Under the pieces are notes generated by a model, which had not been told where the DNA came from, did no database searches, and worked only from the letters and a program-made list of their open reading frames with translations. Below, piece by piece: positions 1-46,264 of a stretch of 64,000 bases of DNA. The stretch's first letter is position 1, and the number at the start of each line of letters is the position of its first letter. The DNA lies in the NCBI GenBank assembly GCA_014695195.1, contig JACJNW010000028.1:434001-498000 (forward strand). The letters run 5' to 3'. The translations under genes and the position numbers were made by a program. This stretch comes from Cyanobacteria bacterium FACHB-DQ100. Its GTDB lineage: Bacteria > Cyanobacteriota > Cyanobacteriia > Leptolyngbyales > Leptolyngbyaceae.

Positions 1-538
1 GATCCTTGCGCTGAGCAGCGGCATAGCCCGCGGTCATGTAGCGATCGTAGAATGTTTCGTTTCGGCTCGGTTTCTCAGGCTTTTCCGCAACGGTGGGCTG
101 GTAGGCCCTCAGTGCTTTTTGCACATAAGGCGCGATTTCTCGTGCATTGAACTTATTCGCGTCGCCCGTCATCCACCAAGCTGCGACTCGTTGAACCGCA
201 GCCGTTTCATTATTGCCGATCGCTTTTGCTTCTTCTTTCAGCACGTCGCGCACGATGCACGTCACAATCGATCGAGCAATGCCTGAATTTGCTTCAAATT
301 CAGATGGAGACAGCGATCGTCCGGTACAGGCTTTTGACCAGCGTGGGATATTGTCGGGCTTGACTTGCCAATCACTGAATAGTCCAGTGTTGGGCTTTTC
401 GGGTTTTGAGGCTTGGCGTAGGGCTTCAACGATCCGATCGACTTGAGCATTGCTCAACTGCGCCGATGCGGGCAGCGCAATTAAACCGAAAGCGCTGATC
501 ACGAGTAATGGTCTGATTAGCTGTTTACAAAAGTGCAT
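1..538 (-). CDS. Secreted protein of unknown function, 3'-truncated by window edge
   Basis: The minus strand is open from an ATG at 538 to the first base of the window, so the C-terminus is missing. The roughly 179 visible residues begin with a classical signal peptide: a basic start (MHFCKQLIRP), a hydrophobic core, and a likely signal-peptidase site after LPASA. The mature part has two cysteines and the motif VAAWWMTGD. I do not recognise a named family. It is probably a small exported protein, seemingly of the cyanobacterial hypothetical class. Its stop codon lies outside the window. Confidence 0.75.
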   Translation of the reverse strand, partial: MHFCKQLIRPLLVISAFGLIALPASAQLSNAQVDRIVEALRQASKPEKPNTGLFSDWQVKPDNIPRWSKACTGRSLSPSEFEANSGIARSIVTCIVRDVLKEEAKAIGNNETAAVQRVAAWWMTGDANKFNAREIAPYVQKALRAYQPTVAEKPEKPSRNETFYDRYMTAGYAAAQRKD

Positions 539-699
539 AGCCGCTAAAGGTTGCATCAAAAATATGATCGTTATTTTGATCTTAAAGTGCCTGACCCTAA
601 CAAATCTTGTTTGGATCGAGCAGTGCTGATATCAAAAAACTATGAAGGAATCAGGCTTCGAGGTCAAGCCATTGTGTGACAGCCAATTCAACAAAAACA

Positions 700-720
700 G
701 GGGGCTGATTTACAGCCCCC
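700..720 (-). terminator. Rho-independent terminator of the CAAD/CurT gene
   Basis: A perfect 8-bp stem (GGGGGCTG / CAGCCCCC) with a 5-nt loop is followed on the minus strand by CTGTTTTTGTTG. It lies 27 bases past the stop of the CAAD gene. Confidence 0.8.
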
Positions 721-747
721 CGATTTCACGACCGTTGCGACTGCGCT

Positions 748-1176
748 CTATTGCGTCACACGACCAACCACTTGTTCTTTGAGCTTGTTGAACTCCTGCC
801 CTAATTCCTCACGGTTGGAGGCTTTCAGCAAATATCGATACACAAACCAGATGCTGTAACCCAATCCAACCAGTTCAAAGGTCGGCTGTAATAGGGGAAC
901 GTCGTTGATCGCACCTAAAAGGGCGAGGGTAAGCTTGACCGAAACGATCGAGCCAAAAATCAGTCCGACCGTCACCAAAGGTTTGCGGTACTCTGAGAAA
1001 AATCGACCGAGATATTCCGGCAGCGATGCCAAAACCGAATAAGTCTTGTCGGCGATTTCGCGCCACTGTTCGCTGCTTGAATTGCTAGAGACAGGCGCAA
1101 GCGTTCCAGCTTCGTCCATTTTGATCGTCGGAGTTTCGACGGTGGAGGCTTCCATTTCTTTCACTTCAGGTTCCAT
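748..1176 (-). CDS. CAAD-domain thylakoid membrane protein (CurT/CURT1-like)
   Basis: The 142-residue protein has a polar, acidic N-terminal half (about residues 1-50), two adjacent membrane segments (about 69-90 and 97-116) and a charged C-terminal helix. The stretch PTFELVGLGYSIWFVYRYLL is typical of the CAAD/CURT1 family. Free-standing members (CurT) shape thylakoid margins; other CAAD domains are appended to aminoacyl-tRNA synthetases. The length matches stand-alone CurT and no synthetase is fused. It is monocistronic with its own terminator. Function is inferred from family. Confidence 0.85.
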   Translation of the reverse strand: MEPEVKEMEASTVETPTIKMDEAGTLAPVSSNSSSEQWREIADKTYSVLASLPEYLGRFFSEYRKPLVTVGLIFGSIVSVKLTLALLGAINDVPLLQPTFELVGLGYSIWFVYRYLLKASNREELGQEFNKLKEQVVGRVTQ

Positions 1177-1261
1177 ACTAAATACCTTGGAAACAATAAC
1201 CTAGTTTGTCTCGCTGGAGCAAAATTCCAGCATTCGGACAGTAGCAGAATTCAACTTTAAT

Positions 1262-1288
1262 TTTCGCTATCTTTCAAACATAGCGAAA
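1262..1288. promoter_or_regulatory. Inverted repeat upstream of the CAAD gene
   Basis: TTTCGCTAT and ATAGCGAAA form a perfect 9-bp inverted repeat with a 9-nt spacer, about 90 bases upstream of the CAAD start. Neither side carries a T-run, so an operator or RNA hairpin in the leader fits better than a terminator. The function is unproven. Confidence 0.4.
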
Positions 1289-1454
1289 GTTCAGAGATAA
1301 ACTTGTCTCTTGCAAGATAGATAATCCTCAAAAATCTGAACTCTGTAAACCCTACTTTCGAGCAGATTTACCCTCCAGTTAGGAGATGTAAAGGTTAATA
1401 GTGTATTTGTTCTATAACTTACCATTAGTCAAACGCGATTGCATCACTAAGATT

Positions 1455-2081
1455 TTATAAGCTGCAAAATTCCTGAATCGCTTGCCAAATCTGCGCTTCT
1501 TGATTCACTAGGCTGTGATTGCTATCCAATTCGATCAAATTTACCCACGATCGATCTTTTACATACAAGCGGCTTTGAGCGATCGGAATCACTTCGTCGT
1601 GGACTCCATGTAAGACCAAGGTTGGAATGGGTTTCTTGATCTGGGCTTCGTCGTAGTTTTTGAGGTCTGAAACAATATCGTAATTCAAAGACGCTGATCC
1701 ACCTAGGCCATAGTGATAGATCAAAATTGGCACCCCGGATCGCCATCGCTCTAGGTCAGATGGGTCGAATGCGGGAAGCCAATGATTTAAATAATTAAAT
1801 GCAGGTGCAAGCAAAACGACGCGATCGATTTGATCACACTGCTCGGCAATCCAAGCGGCAGTTAATCCCCCAAAGCTAGAACCAATTAACGTTACAGGTT
1901 CGTCGTGCAACAGGCTTTTAACCTGCTGAATTTGGCGAGTCAGGGTGAGATGTGGAAAATCGTTTTGATTTAGATCAGGAACTTCTAGGGAGAGATGAAT
2001 CGATCGGAAACGATCGCAAAGTTGACGAGCTTTGGTCGATCTTGGACTTGAAGCAAATCCATGCAGATAAAAATATTTCAT
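1455..2081 (-). CDS. YqiA/YcfP-type alpha/beta-hydrolase (esterase)
   Basis: The product has about 208 residues. The N-terminal MKYFYLHGFASSPRSTKA is the hallmark of the YqiA/UPF0227 family, followed by the nucleophile elbow IGSSFGGL, the acid-loop region HGVHDEVIP and the histidine in SNHSLVN, a complete Ser-Asp-His set. An upstream reading frame would overlap the preceding SIMPL gene; I start at the ATG giving MKYFYLHGF because family similarity begins there and a GGAGAG lies just before it. It is probably a cytosolic esterase with unknown substrate. It is 13 bases downstream of the SIMPL gene and likely cotranscribed. Confidence 0.85.
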   Translation of the reverse strand: MKYFYLHGFASSPRSTKARQLCDRFRSIHLSLEVPDLNQNDFPHLTLTRQIQQVKSLLHDEPVTLIGSSFGGLTAAWIAEQCDQIDRVVLLAPAFNYLNHWLPAFDPSDLERWRSGVPILIYHYGLGGSASLNYDIVSDLKNYDEAQIKKPIPTLVLHGVHDEVIPIAQSRLYVKDRSWVNLIELDSNHSLVNQEAQIWQAIQEFCSL

Positions 2082-2094
2082 CTCTCCGCAGAAG

Positions 2095-2847
2095 CTAGTA
2101 ACTGATTTGTAATGTGACCGATCCTTCGACTCGTTGTTCTCCCCCAACGACCGGACTCGGAGCGGCTTGAACCTTTGTATTTCGTAACTCCATCACCGCA
2201 GCATCCCGGAAAATAGGCGGCGGTGCAGAGGCTCCATTCACCTGAACATTCACAATGTCTTTACGGGTTAGATTCAAGGCACTGAATACTGCATCTGCTT
2301 GAGCTTGTGCCTCTTGAGTGGCTTTACGGAGCGCTTGTTTTTGGGCGGCGGTGATCGCTTCATCTGACGCGACAAAGCTGACCCCATCGATCCGACTTGC
2401 GCCTCTCTTCACCGCTTCATCGATGATCTCGCCTGATCGCTCGGTCGGAACTCGAAACGAAACATTATTCGATCCCGTGTAGCCGACTAGGGTTTGACGG
2501 TTGTTGGTGTAATCATATCGAGGACTCAAATTGATTCCCGTGGTTTCGAGCTTATCGACTTGGCGCGATCGCAAGAAGGTGACGACTGCATTCGATTTGC
2601 GAGCCACTTCTTGCTGCACTTCATTAGCGGTTTTGCCTTGGACTTCGACGCCCAATCGCACTTGCGCCAGTGTCGTTTGGATATCTTCGAACCCGCGACC
2701 TGTGACAGTTAAGGTTCGCACTAATTTCTCCTGAGCCTGAACCGGACTGATCATCGATAAGCTAACAATACCGATTGCCATTGGGATGGCACTCAACCGT
2801 TGCCAAGGTGACTTCTGAATGGATTTCTGAACTGGACTCATCATCAC
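2095..2847 (-). CDS. SIMPL-domain (DUF541) periplasmic protein
   Basis: The 250-residue product has a signal peptide at about residues 1-38 (hydrophobic core ending at SPVQAQ), then the SIMPL fold: an early TLTVTGRGFEDIQTTLAQVRLGV segment, a central ANEVQQ...NAVVTFLR helix, and a C-terminal VEGSVTLQISY strand. SIMPL proteins are exported or membrane-associated and linked in other bacteria to stress and outer-membrane functions; the biochemical role is unknown. Three ATGs in tandem at the start leave the exact initiator open by one or two codons. It precedes the esterase gene in the same direction. Confidence 0.85.
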   Translation of the reverse strand: MMMSPVQKSIQKSPWQRLSAIPMAIGIVSLSMISPVQAQEKLVRTLTVTGRGFEDIQTTLAQVRLGVEVQGKTANEVQQEVARKSNAVVTFLRSRQVDKLETTGINLSPRYDYTNNRQTLVGYTGSNNVSFRVPTERSGEIIDEAVKRGASRIDGVSFVASDEAITAAQKQALRKATQEAQAQADAVFSALNLTRKDIVNVQVNGASAPPPIFRDAAVMELRNTKVQAAPSPVVGGEQRVEGSVTLQISY

Positions 2848-2923
2848 AATTGCCGTACTTAAGAATGTACCTACTTTGCCATCGCATTGGATGAATCGTG
2901 CGATCGGTTACACTTTTCGCAAC

Positions 2924-4354
2924 TTAAGACGGGTTGTGCTTGCGCTCATGAAGTTTCAGACGAATCTCTGCGTGAACTTCTCGCGTGATCGGATAGAAAT
3001 ACACCAACACCATGCCAATGAGCAGCGCGATCGTGGGAACAGGGCCGATCGACAGTCGAATCGCTAACAACACCTCATCTGGCTGAACAGGCAGTTGAAC
3101 TGCTTCAGTTGGCTTGACGTATCCTGCCCACCCTAAACTTTGCAGCACGATCGCCACCGCAATCCCCAAAGAAACCTTTTGCAGAAATGTCACAAAGCTA
3201 TAGAAAATTCCTTCGCGGCGCTGTCCAGTTTGCAGCTCATCGAGTTCGATCACATCCGGCAACATTGACCAGGGAATTAAATACGCGACCGATACCCCAA
3301 ATCCTGACATCACTGCCAACACGTACATCAAGGTCAACTGTCCCGGCTGTAAAAAGAACAATCCGCCTTGTGCAATAATCCACAGCACCATGCCCGCAGC
3401 ATAAACGCCCCGTTTGCCAATTCGCTGACTCGCCGCATTCCACAGCGGAAGGACGAGCATTGCAGTCAGTTGCACGGCTAATACCACGCTTGGAACTGCC
3501 CACGGGCTATTTAGTCTCATCCAGCTTCCGACAAAGTAAGGAATAATCGCTGCTGTAAGCTGAAAACTCAGCCAAGAACACAGATAAATCCCAACGACAA
3601 ATAGAAATGGACGGTTGCTGAAGGCAATTTTGATTTGTTGCGCGATCGGTATCGAGACAGGTTGCTCTGATTCAGGACGCTGTAGCCCGATCGCTTTCAT
3701 CCGATCGAACGTCCCCCAAACACACCAAAACAACGGCAACGATCCCAAAACGGCACAGACGGCACCAATCACCAGATAGCGCTGCCGCACTTCGGGAAAC
3801 ATTGATCCAATGATGCCGACCAGCACGACTGAGAGAATACTGCCGCCGATCGAGAACGCAAATCGGTAACTGTTTAAACTGGTGCGCTCATCGTAATCCT
3901 GCGTCATCTCCGGCGTGAGTGCTGTGTAAGGCAAATTCACCACCGTATAGAGCCACCCAAACGCGATCGAAATAAAGGTGTAATACCAAAACAACCCCCA
4001 CTGCTGCCCGTCTGGATTGTTGCTAAACTTGGGCACAATCCATTGCAGGAAAAAGAAAAAACCGAACGGAATTGCACCCGCCAAAATCCAGGGGTAGCGG
4101 CGACCAAGGCGCGATCGAGTCTTATCGCTCATCACCCCAACCATTGGATCGTTGACTGCATCCCAGACCTTCCCGACCAATTGTGTCTGTCCAGCCAGTC
4201 CGGGATTTAACCCCGCCACGTCCGTCAGAAACGGCGAGAGATAGAAGATCAAAATATTTGCCGTGATTGCAGGGCCTAAATCTCCGGCTCCATAAGCAAT
4301 TTTTGTTTTGAGGTCGAGTTTTTCAGAAATCGGCTCGTTAGCAGAATTATTCAT
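2924..4354 (-). CDS. GPH-family (MelB-like) MFS sugar:cation symporter
   Basis: The 476-residue polytopic protein has about 12 hydrophobic segments. YGAGDLGPAITANILIFYLS at the N-terminus and VNDPMVGVMSDKTRSRLGRR in the first cytoplasmic loop are diagnostic of the glycoside-pentoside-hexuronide:cation symporter family. Members import sugars with H+ or Na+; the substrate cannot be read from sequence. The start MNNSANEP gives a short polar N-terminus before helix 1, as usual. No sugar-catabolic gene is adjacent. Confidence 0.85.
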   Translation of the reverse strand: MNNSANEPISEKLDLKTKIAYGAGDLGPAITANILIFYLSPFLTDVAGLNPGLAGQTQLVGKVWDAVNDPMVGVMSDKTRSRLGRRYPWILAGAIPFGFFFFLQWIVPKFSNNPDGQQWGLFWYYTFISIAFGWLYTVVNLPYTALTPEMTQDYDERTSLNSYRFAFSIGGSILSVVLVGIIGSMFPEVRQRYLVIGAVCAVLGSLPLFWCVWGTFDRMKAIGLQRPESEQPVSIPIAQQIKIAFSNRPFLFVVGIYLCSWLSFQLTAAIIPYFVGSWMRLNSPWAVPSVVLAVQLTAMLVLPLWNAASQRIGKRGVYAAGMVLWIIAQGGLFFLQPGQLTLMYVLAVMSGFGVSVAYLIPWSMLPDVIELDELQTGQRREGIFYSFVTFLQKVSLGIAVAIVLQSLGWAGYVKPTEAVQLPVQPDEVLLAIRLSIGPVPTIALLIGMVLVYFYPITREVHAEIRLKLHERKHNPS

Positions 4355-4455
4355 AACAAAGTCGCAGAATCCGGGGTAACAGTTGTATTATTTTCATCGT
4401 CTTCACCTGTGTAATCCGCAGGTTGCAGAAAAACTTATCTATTTTTGACTTCACT

Positions 4456-4977
4456 ATGCCCGATTCCACTCAGTCCGATCTTCATGTCAGTTGGCCAGAT
4501 TATCATCTGTTAATCGAAAAGCTTGCAGCTCAAATTTACCGATCGGACTGGCAGTTTAATCAAATCGTCTGCTTGGCAAAGGGGGGATTGCGCGTCGGCG
4601 ATGTGCTTGCCCGCATCTTCGATATGCCGCTGGCGATTTTATCGACTTCCTCATATCGCAGCGGCAGTCAGTCGAGGAGTACACTCGTCTTCTCAAAAGA
4701 TCTGACGATGACGACGCTGAATTTGGGCAGTCATGTTTTGTTGGTCGATGATCTAGTGGATTCGGGCGTGACGTTGCAAAAGGCGATTCCTTGGCTCGAT
4801 CGGCACTACGGCTTCTATATCGAGGAGGTTCGTACTGCCGTTCTCTGGTACAAAGCCTGTTCTGTGATCAAGCCCGATTATTATGTGGATTATTTGGAGC
4901 ATAATCCCTGGATTCATCAACCGTTTGAGAAATATGAAAAGATGGAACCGTCGGAACTCTTGAAGCTTCCTGAGTAA
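4456..4977 (+). CDS. Phosphoribosyltransferase-family protein
   Basis: The 173-residue protein has the type I PRTase core. A 5' segment, IVCLAKGGLRVGDVLARI, corresponds to the PPi-binding loop, and VLLVDDLVDSGVTLQKAI is the PRPP loop with the paired acidic residues. The C-terminal WIHQPFEKYE resembles xanthine/hypoxanthine-type PRTases. The ATG giving MPDSTQSDL is preferred over one 11 codons upstream, which adds unrelated residues. The nucleobase is not predictable; purine salvage is likely. Confidence 0.8.
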   Translation: MPDSTQSDLHVSWPDYHLLIEKLAAQIYRSDWQFNQIVCLAKGGLRVGDVLARIFDMPLAILSTSSYRSGSQSRSTLVFSKDLTMTTLNLGSHVLLVDDLVDSGVTLQKAIPWLDRHYGFYIEEVRTAVLWYKACSVIKPDYYVDYLEHNPWIHQPFEKYEKMEPSELLKLPE

Positions 4978-5055
4978 AACCTGTGCCCTAGTAAATAGAG
5001 CTGAGTTTCTCCTGTCCAGATGTCATCTGCAATATAAGGCTAGGAGCGGCTAATC

Positions 5056-5688
5056 ATGTATGGAGCAGACCCAAAAGATAAGCATCCAATGAAGGGATTT
5101 CCGCAAATCTGCTTCATTCAAAATACGGTGTCAAATCCCAATATCATTATTGGTGATTATACTTACTACGATGATCCAGAGGATTCAGAAAATTTTGAGC
5201 GCAACGTTCTATATCATTTCCCATTCATTGGCGATCGCTTAATCATTGGAAAATTCTGTGCTTTGGCAACAGGAATTAAGTTCATCATGAATGGTGCAAA
5301 TCACAAATTGAGCGGGTTCTCGACTTATCCGTTTGACATCTTTAACAACGGTTGGGAAAAAGTAACTCCTCAACCTGAAGAACTCCCCTACAAAGGCGAT
5401 ACCGTCATCGGTAATGATGTGTGGATTGGTTATGAAGCGGTGATTATGCCAGGAGTGAAGGTGGGAGACGGAGCCATTATTGCTGCAAAATCTGTCGTGG
5501 TCGGTAATGTGTCACCCTACACGATCGTGGGGGGCAATCCAGCCAAGCCTATTCGTCAGCGCTTTGACGATGACGTAATCCAATCGTTGCTTGAAGTTGC
5601 TTGGTGGAATTGGGACATTGAGAAAATTACGCGCAACCTGGAAACGATCGTAGCAGCAGATATTGAAGCCCTAATCAATTGCAAGTAA
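5056..5688 (+). CDS. Vat/CatB-type xenobiotic O-acetyltransferase (left-handed beta-helix)
   Basis: The product is 210 residues, the usual length for XAT-class hexapeptide acetyltransferases. IGDYTYYDDPEDSENFERNV and the active-site loop NGANHKLSGFSTYPF, with its catalytic histidine, match the Vat/CatB group. Hexapeptide repeats follow (VIGNDVWIGYEAVIMPGV, VGDGAIIAAKSVV), then the conserved GGNPAKPIRQRF. Family members acetylate streptogramin A or chloramphenicol, but most chromosomal copies have unknown natural substrates, so a resistance function should not be assumed. It stands alone, followed by a terminator belonging to the opposite gene. Confidence 0.85.
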   Translation: MYGADPKDKHPMKGFPQICFIQNTVSNPNIIIGDYTYYDDPEDSENFERNVLYHFPFIGDRLIIGKFCALATGIKFIMNGANHKLSGFSTYPFDIFNNGWEKVTPQPEELPYKGDTVIGNDVWIGYEAVIMPGVKVGDGAIIAAKSVVVGNVSPYTIVGGNPAKPIRQRFDDDVIQSLLEVAWWNWDIEKITRNLETIVAADIEALINCK

Positions 5689-39881: not shown

Positions 39882-41438
39882 TTAACTCTTATCCTCGCTT
39901 CGCAACCCTTTTGTAATCCGAGACAGATCGCTCTTCTCGTCGATCGCAACCCGAGTCGGCGACCCACTAATAATGCGCTCAAAATTGCGGAACGAATCCT
40001 TAATCTCAGGCCCTTGATCGCTGATTGTATATTCCCGGATTCCTTTATCGTGCCAAGATCCGCGCATCTTAAACACATTCAGCGCTCTCGACATTTCTCC
40101 CCGAATTTCTACATATTGCAGCATGATAATCGTGTCGGTAATCGTCGAGATATGCGAATCCGTGATCGAATGTGACCCCATAAATTGATCGGTGGTGTTC
40201 GTGAAGAAACCTGTAATCTCTTCTTGCTTTGCGAATCCAGTCACCCCAATCACAAACTGACGAAACGCATTATTACTCACCCCTCTTGCCAGCGCCGAAA
40301 GCGAATCGATCGCAATTCGAGACGGCTTGAATTCTGCAATTTCAGATTTAATAATCTGCAAGTGATCCTCAAGTCCTGCCGACTCCGGATACGCGCAAAT
40401 AATTTTCAATAAGCCCTTTTGCTCTAGATCTTCAAAGTCAATGCCCCAAGAGTAAGCGTTTCTCGATAATTGAGCGCGAGATTCTTCGTAAGCAAACAGA
40501 ATCGCTCGATCGCCCCTGGTACAAGCTTCTTGTAAAAACTTGCTCACCAGCAGCGTTTTTCCGGTTCCGGTTGCACCCGTTGCCAGAATGATCGAATCTT
40601 TGAAAAAGCCGCCGCCGCACATTTCGTCGAGCGTTTTTACACCTGAAGAGACGCGCACATTCGACGATCGCTGAGTCAAACGCATCGCGCCCAACGGAAA
40701 GATATTAATTCCCTGATTCGTAATCGTGAACGGATACTCTCCTTTCATATGCGTCGTGCCGCGCAGCTTCAGAATCTCGATCGTTCTTCTACGCCGTTCG
40801 CCTTCCAGCACATTTCGCACGATCGCAACGTTATCCGAAACGAACTCCTCTACTCCAAACCGCGCCACCTGACCATACTCCTCGATGCGCTCTGTGGTCA
40901 TAATCGTCGTTGCGCCCACTTGTTTGAGCCGCGCCACTAGGCGAAAAATCTCGCGCCGCACCACCGATGCTGCATCATACTGTTGAAACACAGCCGTCAC
41001 TGAATCGATCGACACCCGCCTCGCTTTGTATTTACGAATCGCATATTGAATGCGTTCGATCAAAGCAGATAAATCAAAATTTCCAACAACATCTTGACCC
41101 TCTGGATCGGGAGAAGCATCGAGAATAAACAGCTTTCCTTCATCAATAAATTTTTGAAGATCCCAGCCGAAGCTAAAGGCATTTTTGATAATATCTGCGG
41201 GCGATTCTTCAAACGTGACGAATACGCCTGCTTCATCAAACTGAGTAATACCGTTGTAAATAAATTGAACTGCAATCAGCGTTTTTCCAGTGCCAGAAGT
41301 GCCGCTTACTAAAGTTGTCCGACCAATCGGTAAACCGCCATGACTAATATCGTCAAAGCCTTCAATCATCGTGCGGATTTTCTGGACACCGGTAAGCTGC
41401 GGAGGGTTACGCTGTTCGATCGGGTTGCTCGAAGTCAT
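39882..41438 (-). CDS. kaiC: Circadian clock ATPase/autokinase KaiC
   Basis: The 518-residue tandem RecA-like protein has CI Walker A GTSGTGKT at 46-53 and catalytic EE at 77-78, and CII Walker A GATGTGKT at 288-295 with EE at 318-319. The autophosphorylation sites S431 and T432 are present in SHISTITD with the same numbering as in Synechococcus elongatus. A full C-terminal tail (ERIISGSPTR) for KaiA binding remains. It is the core of the phosphorylation oscillator. kaiB is 127 bases upstream on the same strand. Confidence 0.98.
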   Translation of the reverse strand: MTSSNPIEQRNPPQLTGVQKIRTMIEGFDDISHGGLPIGRTTLVSGTSGTGKTLIAVQFIYNGITQFDEAGVFVTFEESPADIIKNAFSFGWDLQKFIDEGKLFILDASPDPEGQDVVGNFDLSALIERIQYAIRKYKARRVSIDSVTAVFQQYDAASVVRREIFRLVARLKQVGATTIMTTERIEEYGQVARFGVEEFVSDNVAIVRNVLEGERRRRTIEILKLRGTTHMKGEYPFTITNQGINIFPLGAMRLTQRSSNVRVSSGVKTLDEMCGGGFFKDSIILATGATGTGKTLLVSKFLQEACTRGDRAILFAYEESRAQLSRNAYSWGIDFEDLEQKGLLKIICAYPESAGLEDHLQIIKSEIAEFKPSRIAIDSLSALARGVSNNAFRQFVIGVTGFAKQEEITGFFTNTTDQFMGSHSITDSHISTITDTIIMLQYVEIRGEMSRALNVFKMRGSWHDKGIREYTISDQGPEIKDSFRNFERIISGSPTRVAIDEKSDLSRITKGLRSEDKS

Positions 41439-41565: not shown

Positions 41566-41883
41566 TTATTCTGCATCAATTTCTTCTTCGCGTAATTCTT
41601 CATAAAGCAAATCCAGTCCAATTAAAACTTTTTCTCGATCGGACAAATCTCCAATAATTTTACGCACAGGTGGGGGTAGAATTTTCGCCAATGTGGGTGT
41701 TGCAAGAATTTTGTCTTCTTCGGCTAACTGCGGATTCTTTAACACATCAATGACTTTCAGCGCATAAACACCTTGAAACTCCTTTTCAAGAATATTATTC
41801 AGCATCTTTAGTGCACGAACCGAGTTTGGTGTATTGCCGGCAACATACAGCTTCAAGACGTAGGTTTTTTTCAAAGGACTCAT
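41566..41883 (-). CDS. kaiB: Circadian clock protein KaiB
   Basis: The 105-residue protein has the conserved KaiB sequence [44 protein letters not shown] and [16 protein letters not shown]. It switches fold to bind the CI ring of KaiC, sequester KaiA, and recruit CikA/SasA. The length and acidic C-terminus (LREEEIDAE) are normal. It lies between kaiA and kaiC. Confidence 0.98.
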
Positions 41884-41949: not shown

Positions 41950-42843
41950 TTAAGATTCACGCGGAATTGAGCGACGGTACATCTCGCAAAGATGGGCGAT
42001 CGTATCAATCAAGGTGAGTCGATAATCGAGGAGAATTTCTTCGCTTCTTCCTTCTAATTTTAGCTGTTTTGCAAATTCGTCCATCAGCTCCATATGGATC
42101 TCAACGATGTGCGACACAGGCACATCTGCAAAAAACGCCGCATTGACAAAATTGTCGATCCGTTGATTGAGATCGTGATCGTCCTGGAAATAACTCAAGA
42201 TAATGACGCGATACTCGATCCGAAGCTGCTCTAGAAATTCCGCCTGCTCATTGGGAGGTAAGTTTTTGAGAAAGACTTTTGGACTGCGTTTGTAGTAGAT
42301 TCCTAAGTAGCCTAATCGCTCTTTGAGTTTGTCGGTCAGTCGGCGCTGTTGCATCATTAGAAAGTTCTGCGCGAGCAGATCGCGAGTAAAATCCGGGGTC
42401 GTAATCGGATCAGGAAGCTGACACATCGGGGACAACGCTAAAAACGCTTCGATCGCTTGAGCAATCGAGATATCGAGGCGATCGAGGTCTGCGAGTGACA
42501 CCCAGATCTTAGCGGTGTGGTAGAGAAAGGCGAGTTTGTGGTCAATCTGCCGTGGTTCAGGTTGAACAATCACAATCGGAAGCAAGGTCGCCGCTGTATG
42601 GAGCCACTCTAGGACAGACATTAAGTTCTGCCCGTCCTCTAAAATCAGACAATCTAGCTGCTGTTTTTGGTGCTCAATCAGTTGGAAAAAATCGGCTTCG
42701 GACTGCGCAATCGACAAAGCATAGCGGTCTTGTAGCATCTCGCCTAAAAGTGACTGCTCGACTAGCCGAGTCAGATCAGGGGAATCGAGGTACACACCGA
42801 TCGAAAGCTGCGGACGCACGATCGAAGAAACAGGAACTGTCAA
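41950..42843 (-). CDS. kaiA: Circadian clock protein KaiA (full-length)
   Basis: The 297-residue full-length form has an N-terminal pseudo-receiver domain (about 10-135) and a C-terminal four-helix dimer domain (about 180-290; YYKRSPKVFLKNLPPNEQAEF, IEIHMELMDEFAKQLKLEGR). Nostoc-type short KaiA lacks the former. It stimulates KaiC phosphorylation. The kaiB start is 66 bases downstream, but kaiBC often also has a separate promoter. Confidence 0.97.
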   Translation of the reverse strand: MTVPVSSIVRPQLSIGVYLDSPDLTRLVEQSLLGEMLQDRYALSIAQSEADFFQLIEHQKQQLDCLILEDGQNLMSVLEWLHTAATLLPIVIVQPEPRQIDHKLAFLYHTAKIWVSLADLDRLDISIAQAIEAFLALSPMCQLPDPITTPDFTRDLLAQNFLMMQQRRLTDKLKERLGYLGIYYKRSPKVFLKNLPPNEQAEFLEQLRIEYRVIILSYFQDDHDLNQRIDNFVNAAFFADVPVSHIVEIHMELMDEFAKQLKLEGRSEEILLDYRLTLIDTIAHLCEMYRRSIPRES

Positions 42844-43219
42844 AACGAAAAACCTGAATGGAATGAAGGGAGCTAAATCGTATTCTAAGATTCTTCCTAC
42901 AAAAATGTTGAAGAGAAAGTGCCAGAGTTAGGGCACAGACTTTTATCAAAGGTCTAATTTAGATTGAAGCGTTTGGCGCTCCGTTAATTATAATTACATA
43001 AAGCTTTTTCTCTCATATATAGGTTTCCCACTGTGTCATGATTTAGGCTTAAATAAATTTAAATTCGCTTCAGTTGAGTGTGAGCACTCAACCTCATATA
43101 AATTCCATTTCAGTTAGTGCTTTTGCAGCTCGATAAACCGTAATCAGACCTTGATCAGCGATTAAAATCAAGGACAACGCTGATTTGCAATCTTCTGCCG
43201 AATCGGTCAGGATAAAGCG
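42844..43219. promoter_or_regulatory. Divergent kaiA / hybrid kinase promoter region
   Basis: A 376-base AT-rich region with TATA-like runs (TTAATTATAATTACATAAAG near 42990, CATATATAGG near 43015). It must carry the promoters of kaiA and the kinase. An 8-bp hairpin (43073-43092, GTTGAGTG / CACTCAAC) lies about 130 bases before the kinase start. Confidence 0.5.
43073..43092. promoter_or_regulatory. Inverted repeat in the kinase leader
   Basis: GTTGAGTG-TGAG-CACTCAAC has 8-bp arms and a 4-nt loop. It may be a leader hairpin or an operator of the clock-adjacent kinase. No T-run follows. Confidence 0.45.
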
Positions 43220-46200
43220 ATGGTGATCTATCCAGCCTCGATTCATGATTTCATCGAGCCTGCCCCCGTTTGTTTGCAGTCGGCAACTTCGGCTGAAGTA
43301 ATCGAACTGCTGGGGCGGTATCACGCTGACCGCTTGGTGTTCGTGGATGAGCGGCAGTCTCCGATCGGCGTAATTCATGCGTATGCGTTGCTCTCTCAGG
43401 TCGGACAGGCGGAAGAGTGCGACCTTGAACCCTTGATCGAGCCGCTACCGACGATCGCAGACACGACGGATTTACTTGGACTTGAATTTTCGAGTCCGAT
43501 TCGGTATTGGGCAGCGGTGAACGCCGCGCATCAGTTTCTCGGATTAGTCGATAGCGTGGTGTTACGCACCTGGTCAGAGTTTTTGCAGTCCGAGCCGATT
43601 AAGCCGAAGGTTTCCTCTGAATCCCTCTGGCATCGCGCCAAAACCGAAACCTGTGCAGAACTGGAACGATCGCGCCTGAAGCTCTCACCTGCAATGAATC
43701 AGCTTCAGCAGCAAATTCAAACTCAGACTGCCAAACTTGGCTATGAACTCGTTGACTGCTCTATACGCTTTGATGCAGTCGCTGAACCTGACTCAAACGC
43801 AACGTTAATGCAATTTCTGGATCACCTACCGTTGCCCTTGATGCTGCAAACTCAAACTGGAGAGGTGATTGCTCAAAACAAAGTGTGGGCAGAGCAACTG
43901 GGAGATATCCTCGATCCAAACTGGGTGCAGCGAGATGCAGCCACGATCCTAGAGCTTGCCGCGCCTGCTGTTCAATCTTCAACCCGTAGCGCACCCGTGG
44001 TTGCCTCTGTGACGGCTAACCTTTGCCAAAAAGGCTCTGCACCAAATACCTGTATTTGCGTTTGCCCGCTAAAAAATGGACAAGAGCGCGTGTTACAGTT
44101 TGCCAAAATTCCGCTTGGGGAACTGTTCTCACACCAGCATATTCCAGCGGTAGATTCTGATTCAGCGTTTCGACTGGCAGCCTTTGAGCAAGGGACAGCG
44201 CACTCCGATCGTTCCCAAGCACCGATGCAAGAGAGCGTTTGGCTGGTGCTGGCGCAAGACATCACGGAACAACAGCAGCTTTCGCGAGAACTCGCAGCCA
44301 AAAACGCCGACCTGATTCAACTCAATCGTCTGAAAGACGAATTTCTTGCCTGTATCAGTCACGAACTCAGAACCCCACTCACCGCCGTTCTCGGCTTATC
44401 GAGTTTGCTCAAAGACCAGCTTTCTGGAACGCTGAACCAACGCCAGATTCGCTATGCCCAACTGATTCACCGCAGCGGGCGGCATCTGATGGCGATCGTC
44501 AACGATATTCTCGACTTGACGCGGATTGAAACTGGACAACTCGAACTGACCTTTTATTCTGTCCGCCTGAAGTCTCTGTGCGATCGAGTAATCGAGCAAG
44601 CGCAGCAAGTCTGTTTAGAAGAAGAGAAACCAGAAACTAGAACAGTTCTCGACGCGATCGGAGCTTTGCCAGCATGCACCCTAGAAATTGAGCCAGGACT
44701 GGAAGCCTTAGTTGCAGATGAACTGCGCCTGCGTCAAATGCTGGTGCACTTGTTGTCGAATGCGTTAAAGTTCACCGATATTTCTGGCAAAATTGGCTTA
44801 AAAGTAAGTCGTTGGGAAGGCTGGATTGCTTTTACCGTCTGGGATACCGGAATTGGGATTCCTTCTGAAAAGCAGCATTTAATTTTCCAGAAGTTTCAGC
44901 AGCTTGAGAATCCGATGACTCGTCGATTTGAAGGAGCTGGATTGGGATTAGTGCTGACGCAGCGTTTAGCACGACTGCACGGTGGCGATGTCTCGTTTGT
45001 GTCTAAGGAGAATCAGGGCAGCGAATTTACGCTTCTGCTGCCGCCCACTCATCCGCATCCCACCGATCGCATTGCTGTTTCTCGCCCGAAATCGAGCAGC
45101 AATCGCCTCGTTCTAGTCGTCGAAGCCGTAGTGAAGTCGATCGAACTGCTTTCAGAACAGCTTGCCGAGCTAGGATACCGCGTGGTGATTGCGCGATCGG
45201 GAACCGAAGCGATCGAAAAAGCCCGTCGTTTACAGCCTTGTGCAATGTTTATCAATCCGCTGTTGCCGACGCTCTCCGGTTGGGACGTGCTGACGCTGCT
45301 GAAAGCTGAGCCTGAAACGCGAGAGATTCCGGTGATTGTGACGGGAACTCGTGGCGATCGCGATCAAGCCTACCGCAATCAAGCCGATGGATTTGTAGCA
45401 TTGCCGATCGTGCAGAAAGCGCTTCAGCAAGTCCTCAACCAACTCACGCCCGATGAGGTATCGGTGCCGTCGATCGTGGAGCCACTGCCCCAAAGCATCG
45501 TGATTTTGCGGCTGAGTCCAACCCGCTACGGGGAACTGCATCGGTTGGGAAATCGATCGGGGATTGATCTGAATGCTTTGCTGCACAGCCAGAATTACCG
45601 CGTAGTCGAAGCAGACGACCTAGAGCAAGCCGAACTGCTCGCACAGGTCTGGAAGCCGAATATCGTGCTACTCGATGCGGCGGTCTCTGACCCGATTGGC
45701 TACCTGAAACTATTAGGAGACTGTAGTTTTCTAGCTTCGCTACCCTTGGTCACGCTCGATCCGGTGACGGCACAAGCCGCGAATCAAGTGCCTGGATTAA
45801 CTGTGTTTCCTTGCTTAGCACCCGTTGACGAAAGCGCAGAATCCTCCGCACTGCTGCAAGTGATTCAAGTGGCAGCAGGCTTTGCTTGGCGACCGTTCGT
45901 GTTGGCGATCGACTCTGCTAAGTTGCGCTCTCCCGAAGCTAAGCGCTCAGATTGGCTACAAGCCGTGATGCAATACTTTCAAACGGCTGGATTTCGCGGC
46001 ATGATTGCGCGATCGTGGCAAGATGTCCTACAAAAGCTCGATACCCAAAGCATCGATTTACTCTTGCTTCATGCTTTGGACTTGGATCAATCCACGATCG
46101 AGCGGCTTTCATCCTTAAAGCGATTCCGGGAAACCGTTGCGATCGTGGTCATCAATCATCAGCCCGAAAATACGCCGCTGCTCGAAGCGATCGCGACCGT

Positions 46201-46264
46201 TGTACTGCCGCCAATGCCCATGGAAGATTTGCTCAATCGCGTTAACAGCATTTTGACGAAATGA
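43220..46264 (+). CDS. CBS-PAS histidine kinase with degenerate receiver domains
   Basis: The 1014-residue protein is transcribed away from kaiA. Domains: a CBS-like pair (about 5-125), a PAS-like domain (about 195-345), HisKA with H381 in ISHELRTPLTAVLGL, and HATPase_c with SNALKFTD, DTGIGIP and GAGLGLVL. Three receiver-like modules follow from about 628, 755 and 895. In the first the phosphoryl-accepting Asp is Asn679 (FINPLLP), the conserved Lys is Leu728, and the acidic pair reads VEA. The second keeps D819 but not the acidic cluster or Lys; the third is eroded too. It is probably cytosolic and active as a kinase, with pseudo-receivers as in CikA and KaiA. Confidence 0.85.
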   Translation: MVIYPASIHDFIEPAPVCLQSATSAEVIELLGRYHADRLVFVDERQSPIGVIHAYALLSQVGQAEECDLEPLIEPLPTIADTTDLLGLEFSSPIRYWAAVNAAHQFLGLVDSVVLRTWSEFLQSEPIKPKVSSESLWHRAKTETCAELERSRLKLSPAMNQLQQQIQTQTAKLGYELVDCSIRFDAVAEPDSNATLMQFLDHLPLPLMLQTQTGEVIAQNKVWAEQLGDILDPNWVQRDAATILELAAPAVQSSTRSAPVVASVTANLCQKGSAPNTCICVCPLKNGQERVLQFAKIPLGELFSHQHIPAVDSDSAFRLAAFEQGTAHSDRSQAPMQESVWLVLAQDITEQQQLSRELAAKNADLIQLNRLKDEFLACISHELRTPLTAVLGLSSLLKDQLSGTLNQRQIRYAQLIHRSGRHLMAIVNDILDLTRIETGQLELTFYSVRLKSLCDRVIEQAQQVCLEEEKPETRTVLDAIGALPACTLEIEPGLEALVADELRLRQMLVHLLSNALKFTDISGKIGLKVSRWEGWIAFTVWDTGIGIPSEKQHLIFQKFQQLENPMTRRFEGAGLGLVLTQRLARLHGGDVSFVSKENQGSEFTLLLPPTHPHPTDRIAVSRPKSSSNRLVLVVEAVVKSIELLSEQLAELGYRVVIARSGTEAIEKARRLQPCAMFINPLLPTLSGWDVLTLLKAEPETREIPVIVTGTRGDRDQAYRNQADGFVALPIVQKALQQVLNQLTPDEVSVPSIVEPLPQSIVILRLSPTRYGELHRLGNRSGIDLNALLHSQNYRVVEADDLEQAELLAQVWKPNIVLLDAAVSDPIGYLKLLGDCSFLASLPLVTLDPVTAQAANQVPGLTVFPCLAPVDESAESSALLQVIQVAAGFAWRPFVLAIDSAKLRSPEAKRSDWLQAVMQYFQTAGFRGMIARSWQDVLQKLDTQSIDLLLLHALDLDQSTIERLSSLKRFRETVAIVVINHQPENTPLLEAIATVVLPPMPMEDLLNRVNSILTK

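Follow-up and report, generated by a model that had tools for sequence, protein, structure and literature searches.

Most of what is known about clock input and output in cyanobacteria comes from S. elongatus, with a smaller share from Synechocystis. CikA is a histidine kinase with a C-terminal pseudo-receiver, a clock association and a possible phosphatase role (in part PMC12632262 and PMC13421787). Its pseudo-receiver binds KaiB through an alpha1-beta2-alpha2 surface, according to the review PMC12632262. SasA is a clock-linked HisKA-type histidine kinase whose N-terminal part has a KaiB-like thioredoxin fold. Here we describe a gene of Cyanobacteria bacterium FACHB-DQ100 that encodes a hybrid histidine kinase which carries pseudo-receivers and is probably associated with the clock. 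The window, the whole stretch of DNA that was analysed, comprises 64,000 nucleotides of contig JACJNW010000028.1 (positions 434,001 to 498,000), and all coordinates refer to it. The open reading frame (ORF) runs from 43220 to 46264 on the forward strand, starts with ATG and encodes 1014 residues. It is divergent from kaiA, as the sequence-only reading of this DNA had stated. The preferred reading, with a probability of roughly 0.4, is that of a putative clock-dedicated, Kai-docking, CikA-like sensor kinase/phosphatase that travels with kaiA; a functional tie of some kind between the kinase and the kaiA locus is very probable.

The kinase shares general features with each of the described systems and differs from all of them in composition. 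CikA has a GAF domain and one receiver, whereas this kinase has a CBS pair, a PAS-like domain and three receivers, and its gene stands beside kaiA; Pfam finds no GAF domain at E up to 1 in the window protein or in nine orthologues. The KaiB-like part of SasA is unmatched: the SasA family NF006800 aligned only at positions 135-376 and scored 126.7 bits, where 342 are required and the true SasA encoded elsewhere in the genome reaches 549.7. Among the best 25 of the 103 NCBIfam families that matched, none reached its cut-off. The best match over the HisKA-HATPase-REC region, the HrmK type (NF038297), scored 291.7 bits, far below the 725-bit cut-off, and this kinase differs from that type by its N-terminus and by two extra receivers. 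ShkA-type proteins likewise hold a pseudo-receiver within a hybrid kinase (PMC12632262), but the present protein has no fully equipped receiver, offers no evidence of cyclic di-GMP and is linked to the clock. A full-text literature search, with subscription papers mostly outside its reach, found no description of this gene. The Anabaena neighbour of kaiA is all2883. That locus name occurs in one table of PMC2633013.

The domains of the window protein were assigned by Pfam and NCBIfam profile searches, an AlphaFold2 model built on a 75-sequence alignment, and structure-match searches. The CBS pair, the PAS-like domain, HisKA/HATPase and the three receiver-like modules named in the sequence-only reading all appear in the model. 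The CBS pair spans residues 1-124 (43220..43591) by predicted secondary structure; its Pfam score lies below the cut-off in the window protein (14.2 against 24 bits) and above it in six of the nine orthologues tested, which identifies the domain. The PAS-like domain, residues 192-347 (43793..44260), is assigned from AlphaFold2 secondary structure alone, and no Pfam PAS family matches it at E up to 1. The HisKA/DHp domain (residues 349-438, 44264..44533) carries the phospho-acceptor His381, and the HATPase/CA domain (residues 486-608, 44675..45043) has an intact N box and intact G boxes, a combination that makes the protein a HisKA-type hybrid kinase. REC1 covers residues 630-742 (45107..45445), REC2 residues 761-888 (45500..45883) and REC3 residues 893-1013 (45896..46258); REC3 is missing in some shorter orthologues. 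Above the Pfam cut-offs are HisKA at 372-439, HATPase at 500-610 and a single receiver at 631-739, whereas AlphaFold2 predicts three (beta-alpha)5 folds. The full-length model has a mean predicted local distance difference test (pLDDT) score of 75 and a predicted template modelling (pTM) score of 0.44, at which the spatial arrangement of the domains is untrustworthy; REC2-REC3 modelled alone reach a mean pLDDT of 86.4. In fold searches the REC1 model matches receivers at Z 21 and REC3 at Z about 15, and the receiver fold of REC2 is a prediction only.

Conservation was read from 75 named sequences, a set that derives from the 80 best among 359 candidates and is weighted toward close relatives, and from a second, more diverse set of 46. 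Loci L105, L135, L140, L141, L143 and L159 were excluded before the first alignment, and L140 was restored in a set of 133 rows. From the 59 fetched loci of relatives, L049, L085, L088 and L093 (no orthologue), L052, L054 and L079 (broken ORF) and seven loci without a kinase match were left aside. The alignments of 133 and 149 rows contain some genomes twice, and their counts are of rows, not genomes.

In the window, kaiA (41950..42843), kaiB (41566..41883) and kaiC (39882..41438) lie on the reverse strand, each with a Pfam/NCBIfam score far over the cut-off, and kinase and kaiA are transcribed apart from a gap of 376 bp (42844..43219). A synteny check across cyanobacterial genomes had been proposed, and it bears the linkage out. 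A set of 58 relatives' genomes (own genome included, 24 family codes) was searched with the C-terminal 272 residues of the kinase and with KaiA. The kinase tail matches in 49 genomes and KaiA in 55; the two lie on the same contig, within about 5 kb, in 45 of the 49, as judged by comparing the two match lists by eye. ORF maps of the relatives' loci show the same divergent order. A scan of species genomes returned 359 stretches encoding relatives, of which the best 80, all cyanobacterial by title, were kept, and the kinase is divergent from kaiA in 72 of these. The other eight are L105, with kaiA present and a broken kinase ORF, L141, L154, L159 and L166, at contig ends, and L123, L164 and L173, which are described below. 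Among the relatives, G043 has the kinase at a contig end and kaiA on another contig, and in G033 KaiA was not found.

The pattern extends across the phylum. In a sample of 244 genomes, searched with a REC2-REC3 profile at E up to 1e-6 and with KaiA (lists again compared by eye), the profile is found in 70 genomes and KaiA in 101, and all 70 carry KaiA. The kinase is thus present in 70 of 101 kaiA-bearing genomes and in none of the 143 that lack kaiA, raw counts uncorrected for phylogeny in which diverged orthologues may score below threshold and the kaiA-less genomes lie mostly outside the class (13 class members lack kaiA, 12 of them under 2 Mb). Kinase and kaiA share one contig within about 7 kb in 61 of the 70; they are on different contigs in seven (G147, G155, G160, G172, G206, G248, G252), and G052 and G097 are weak matches of doubtful orthology. 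The kinase thus shows two marks expected of a Kai clock component, a genomic link to kai genes that is conserved and an occurrence together with them. One locus (L086, 9865-13353, genome G046) pairs kaiA and the kinase with no kaiB or kaiC in the fetched stretch of 10 kb or so, which points to kaiA, not kaiBC, as the linked partner.

Two further loci vary the arrangement. In L071/L123, apparently the same contig of 7037 bp, the kinase is directly divergent from kaiC (115-5560), with no kaiA or kaiB between; the genome is the above-mentioned G033, which is 85% complete, and the layout reflects either a real loss of kaiAB or a bin artefact. In L049 (6195-8552, genome G011), a divergent ORF of 785 residues lies upstream of kaiA, and the kinase was not found in the G011 genome, which shares its genus code with the kinase carrier G027.

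The compact divergent layout suits an alternative explanation, namely that the kinase merely shares a regulatory region with kaiA and serves another pathway timed with the clock. The intergenic length stays within 113-673 bp across the 72 linked named loci, and a DNA block near 42982-43003 is conserved among close relatives of the genus, both as co-regulation would predict. Against it, the gene order lasts across families, while the intergenic DNA already aligns poorly to neighbouring genera, and within the sample the kinase is restricted to kaiA-bearing genomes. Co-regulation alone is the strongest of the alternatives, and still an unlikely one. The block itself is a possible promoter or regulator site.

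The kinase core is complete in most members and dismantled in a few. All 75 named sequences retain the catalytic residues that were examined, and His381 is invariant in 149 of 149 rows. Six genomes have destroyed ATP-binding motifs, two of Thermosynechococcus (G139 and G226) and four others (G046, G258, G121 and G037), and G180 shows partial loss, in regions whose degraded state makes the alignment uncertain. In G139 and G226, with ORFs of 715 and 718 residues, the N box, the Asp of DxGxG and the last G box are gone; the ratio of nonsynonymous to synonymous substitution rates (dN/dS) between the two ORFs is 0.16. The naming of G139 is based on its KaiA, which matches PDB 5jwr, presumably a Thermosynechococcus entry, almost letter for letter across the C-terminal domain. 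The catalytic motifs are kept in G260, and in G064 the N box and Asp are kept while the last G box is damaged. The within-family contrasts of G046 with G260 and of G258 with G064 suggest separate losses in two families; with the KaiA tree poorly resolved at depth, these contrasts are all that speaks for independent losses. The phospho-His, the REC2 motif and the neighbouring kaiA are all kept in the pseudokinase forms. Since the REC2 motif and the kaiA linkage outlast the loss of ATP binding, part of the function appears to be independent of ATP. The HExxT/N motif, which has a phosphatase role, is also mostly retained (G258 lacks the Glu), so that these proteins may act as phosphatases, in phosphotransfer or in docking.

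These forms also bear on a second alternative, in which the kinase phosphorylates an orphan response regulator of the kaiA/kinase promoter region and so feeds back on kai transcription, leaving the Kai proteins untouched. The intact catalytic residues of the named sequences suit such feedback, and divergent regulator-target gene pairs are common. The pseudokinase forms, however, are still linked to kaiA, and a Pfam search of the window protein finds no DNA-binding domain in the kinase itself. Feedback of this kind is improbable.

None of the three receivers keeps the full phosphorylation site of Asp, acidic pair, Thr/Ser and Lys, and all have a predicted receiver fold, as defines a pseudo-receiver. 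The description of REC1 as having Asn679, Leu728 (followed by Pro729) and a broken acidic pair was correct, and these turn out to be features of the family: residue 679 is Asn in 74 of the 75 named sequences and Ser in one, no sequence has Lys at position 728, and where the acidic pair would stand (Glu635 and Ala636 in the window protein) the family has Glu followed in most cases by Ala. In the diverse set of 46, 40 sequences have Asn and two have Asp at residue 679, and one has Lys at 728; the relative G260 (L244) has Asp at 679. The other receivers had been described as lacking key residues as well, which applies to the site as a whole but not to every residue. REC2 has lost the acidic pair and the Lys, yet 57 of the 75 sequences still have Asp819 and 74 have Thr845. 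In REC3, the Asp position holds Cys, Tyr, His and others (Asp in two of 75), and one acidic residue of the pair, Asp898, persists in 66 sequences of the 75. That the gene encodes a standard hybrid kinase whose phosphorelay works and which lies beside kaiA by chance is very improbable and largely contradicted already: HisKA, HATPase and REC1 do score as normal family members, the nearest kinase of the same genome is 48% identical across residues 341-621 and the REC2 phosphosite Asp often persists, but REC1 lacks both phospho-Asp and Lys in every named sequence, no Hpt domain is found by Pfam at E up to 1 in the window protein, and a kaiA linkage across many families is not chance.

The receivers are constrained despite their lost sites. 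Against the nearest relative, L098, dN/dS is 0.03 for REC1, 0.02 for REC2, 0.05 for the kinase core, 0.17 for REC3 and 0.21 for the CBS part, and in the same comparison it is 0.18 for kaiA and 0.015 for kaiC; comparison with three more relatives from the genus puts REC1-REC3 at 0.04-0.09. These ratios indicate that REC1 and REC2 are kept by strong purifying selection and that the receivers are not decaying. In REC2, the beta2-alpha2 segment (residues 794-811, 45599..45652) ranks first of 116 windows of 18 columns in conservation and ends at Trp811, which is invariant in 149 of 149 rows. The REC2 phosphosite loop is weakly conserved, at 1.38 bits against 3.0-3.1 for beta2-alpha2; two ordinary receiver families, taken as a reference, have their phosphosite and Lys regions among the best-conserved parts. 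By analogy with the CikA surface, the REC2 beta2-alpha2 segment may be a lead to a candidate docking face, not a test of one.

The input half was proposed to sense nucleotides through its CBS domains. That part of the proposal does not hold: the canonical CBS nucleotide motif G-h-h-[ST]-x-x-[DN] occurs in none of the 75 N-termini, which leaves nucleotide sensing without sequence support and very unlikely. Conserved cysteines point elsewhere. Two of them, Cys454 and Cys378 (the latter three positions ahead of the phospho-His), are present in 75 of 75 named sequences, and Cys18, Cys269 and Cys865 in 70-71; in the diverse 46, the counts are 41 (Cys378), 43 (Cys454), 36 (Cys18), 37 (Cys269) and 41 (Cys865). 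Within the PAS-like domain, C269-x8-C278-x-C280-x-C282 (44024..44065) forms a four-cysteine motif, the last three of which alternate on the predicted beta strand 277-284. From cysteine conservation, redox sensing may be proposed, though it is doubtful as a firm assignment. A 2026 review (PMC13421787) names KaiA, CikA and LdpA as the known clock redox inputs, in passages that make no mention of this kinase.

In the mechanism that we propose, the CBS-PAS half would read cellular state, with redox a likelier signal than nucleotides given the conserved cysteines. Instead of accepting phosphate, the pseudo-receivers would dock to another protein, perhaps through REC2 beta2-alpha2; the likeliest partner would be one of the Kai proteins, KaiB or KaiA. 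Docking could then set the kinase/phosphatase balance of HisKA toward a separate response regulator, with RpaA the best guess, as CikA does. In lineages without ATP binding, docking and/or a phosphatase or phosphotransfer function alone would remain. The analogy with the pseudo-receivers of CikA and KaiA, raised in the sequence-only reading for their contacts with KaiB/KaiC and quinones, survives insofar as degenerate receivers are kept under selection; it is general only. The idea of a clock kinase likewise gains from the conserved kaiA linkage and from the confinement to kaiA-bearing genomes of the sample, and loses its nucleotide-sensing part.

Several observations weigh against this clock-dedicated, Kai-docking kinase. 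Kinase and kaiA lie apart inside long contigs in G036 and G042, and L164 and L173 show no kaiA within about 5 kb upstream of the kinase. The kinase ORF is broken in G014, G016 and G041, and in L180 (G196, 2.8 Mb) a kinase remnant alone is left, through decay or assembly error in each case. In G196, kaiB is split across two overlapping pieces and kaiA and kaiC match over their full length, which may reflect decay of the clock; in G230 (L179), from the same genus, a kinase ORF of 880 residues persists. At the threshold of E up to 1e-6, 31 of the 101 kaiA-bearing genomes have no kinase, among them G045, of S. elongatus type, and G069, of Synechocystis type, in which other ORFs lie upstream of kaiA. 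The KaiA of G045 is close to PDB 5n8y and the KaiB of G069 is nearly identical to 1wwj, entries that we take to be from S. elongatus and Synechocystis; the two genomes are stand-ins for the laboratory models, not strains PCC 7942 and PCC 6803 themselves. The full C-x8-C-x-C-x-C motif is present in 35 of the 75 named sequences only, with reduced forms in the Nostocales and Microcoleus rows, and a family-wide iron-sulfur site was accordingly rejected in favour of a lineage feature. Strands beta4 and beta5 of REC2 are as conserved as beta2-alpha2 (3.2-3.3 against 3.0-3.1 bits), so that the fold alone may explain the conservation pattern.

The comparison with KaiA is no more decisive. The N-terminal pseudo-receiver of KaiA (KaiA-N) is likewise a degenerate receiver encoded at the same locus, and it has a profile match to REC3 (77.5% probability, score 34.1); REC1 and REC2 score 16.8 and 13.5, and none of 100 column shuffles exceeds 18.1. 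Seven ordinary receiver families drawn from the analysed loci, small and shallow ones, score 33.0, 18.6, 17.9, 16.1, 15.7, 12.0 and 11.1 with KaiA-N, and REC3 matches the family at 33.0 with 51.3; a pooled 'generic' receiver profile, at 37.7, was contaminated by REC2 and REC3 rows. With one of the seven families scoring alike, a special kinship of REC3 with KaiA-N is no more than a possibility and is not used as support. Fold searches with the full model and with REC2-REC3 return mostly ordinary receivers and kinases among the best 50 matches; KaiA and CikA chains are not among these 50, a result that decides nothing, and REC2 alone was barely probed.

The gene makes a good candidate for a clock component that has been overlooked in cyanobacteria. 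It stands beside kaiA in many other clock-bearing families and was not found in the sampled relatives of the laboratory models, and the textbook set of clock kinases, SasA and CikA, would then be incomplete for much of the phylum. The most specific form of the proposal is tentative and, taken whole, rather unlikely: a widespread, undescribed clock-dedicated kinase that would link redox input, received by a PAS/CBS part with cysteines, to the Kai complex via pseudo-receivers, a pseudokinase in several lineages and apparently absent from both laboratory-model groups. The docking idea is directly testable with the natural pseudokinases that adjoin the structurally well-studied KaiA of Thermosynechococcus.

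The surroundings of the kinase-kai block are less stable. A creatininase-like gene and btpA, as we take these outer neighbours to be, recur in nine of the 59 fetched loci, and tsf and rpsB in three, in each case within the same genus or one near genus only; the stretches compared were at most 20 kb long, some on short contigs. On the kaiA side, 13 Nostoc-like loci (L137, L138, L144, L145, L147-L149, L152, L155, L161, L172, L175 and L176) have kaiA ORFs of 188-206 residues, which leave no room for the N-terminal receiver, yet a long kinase adjoins them.

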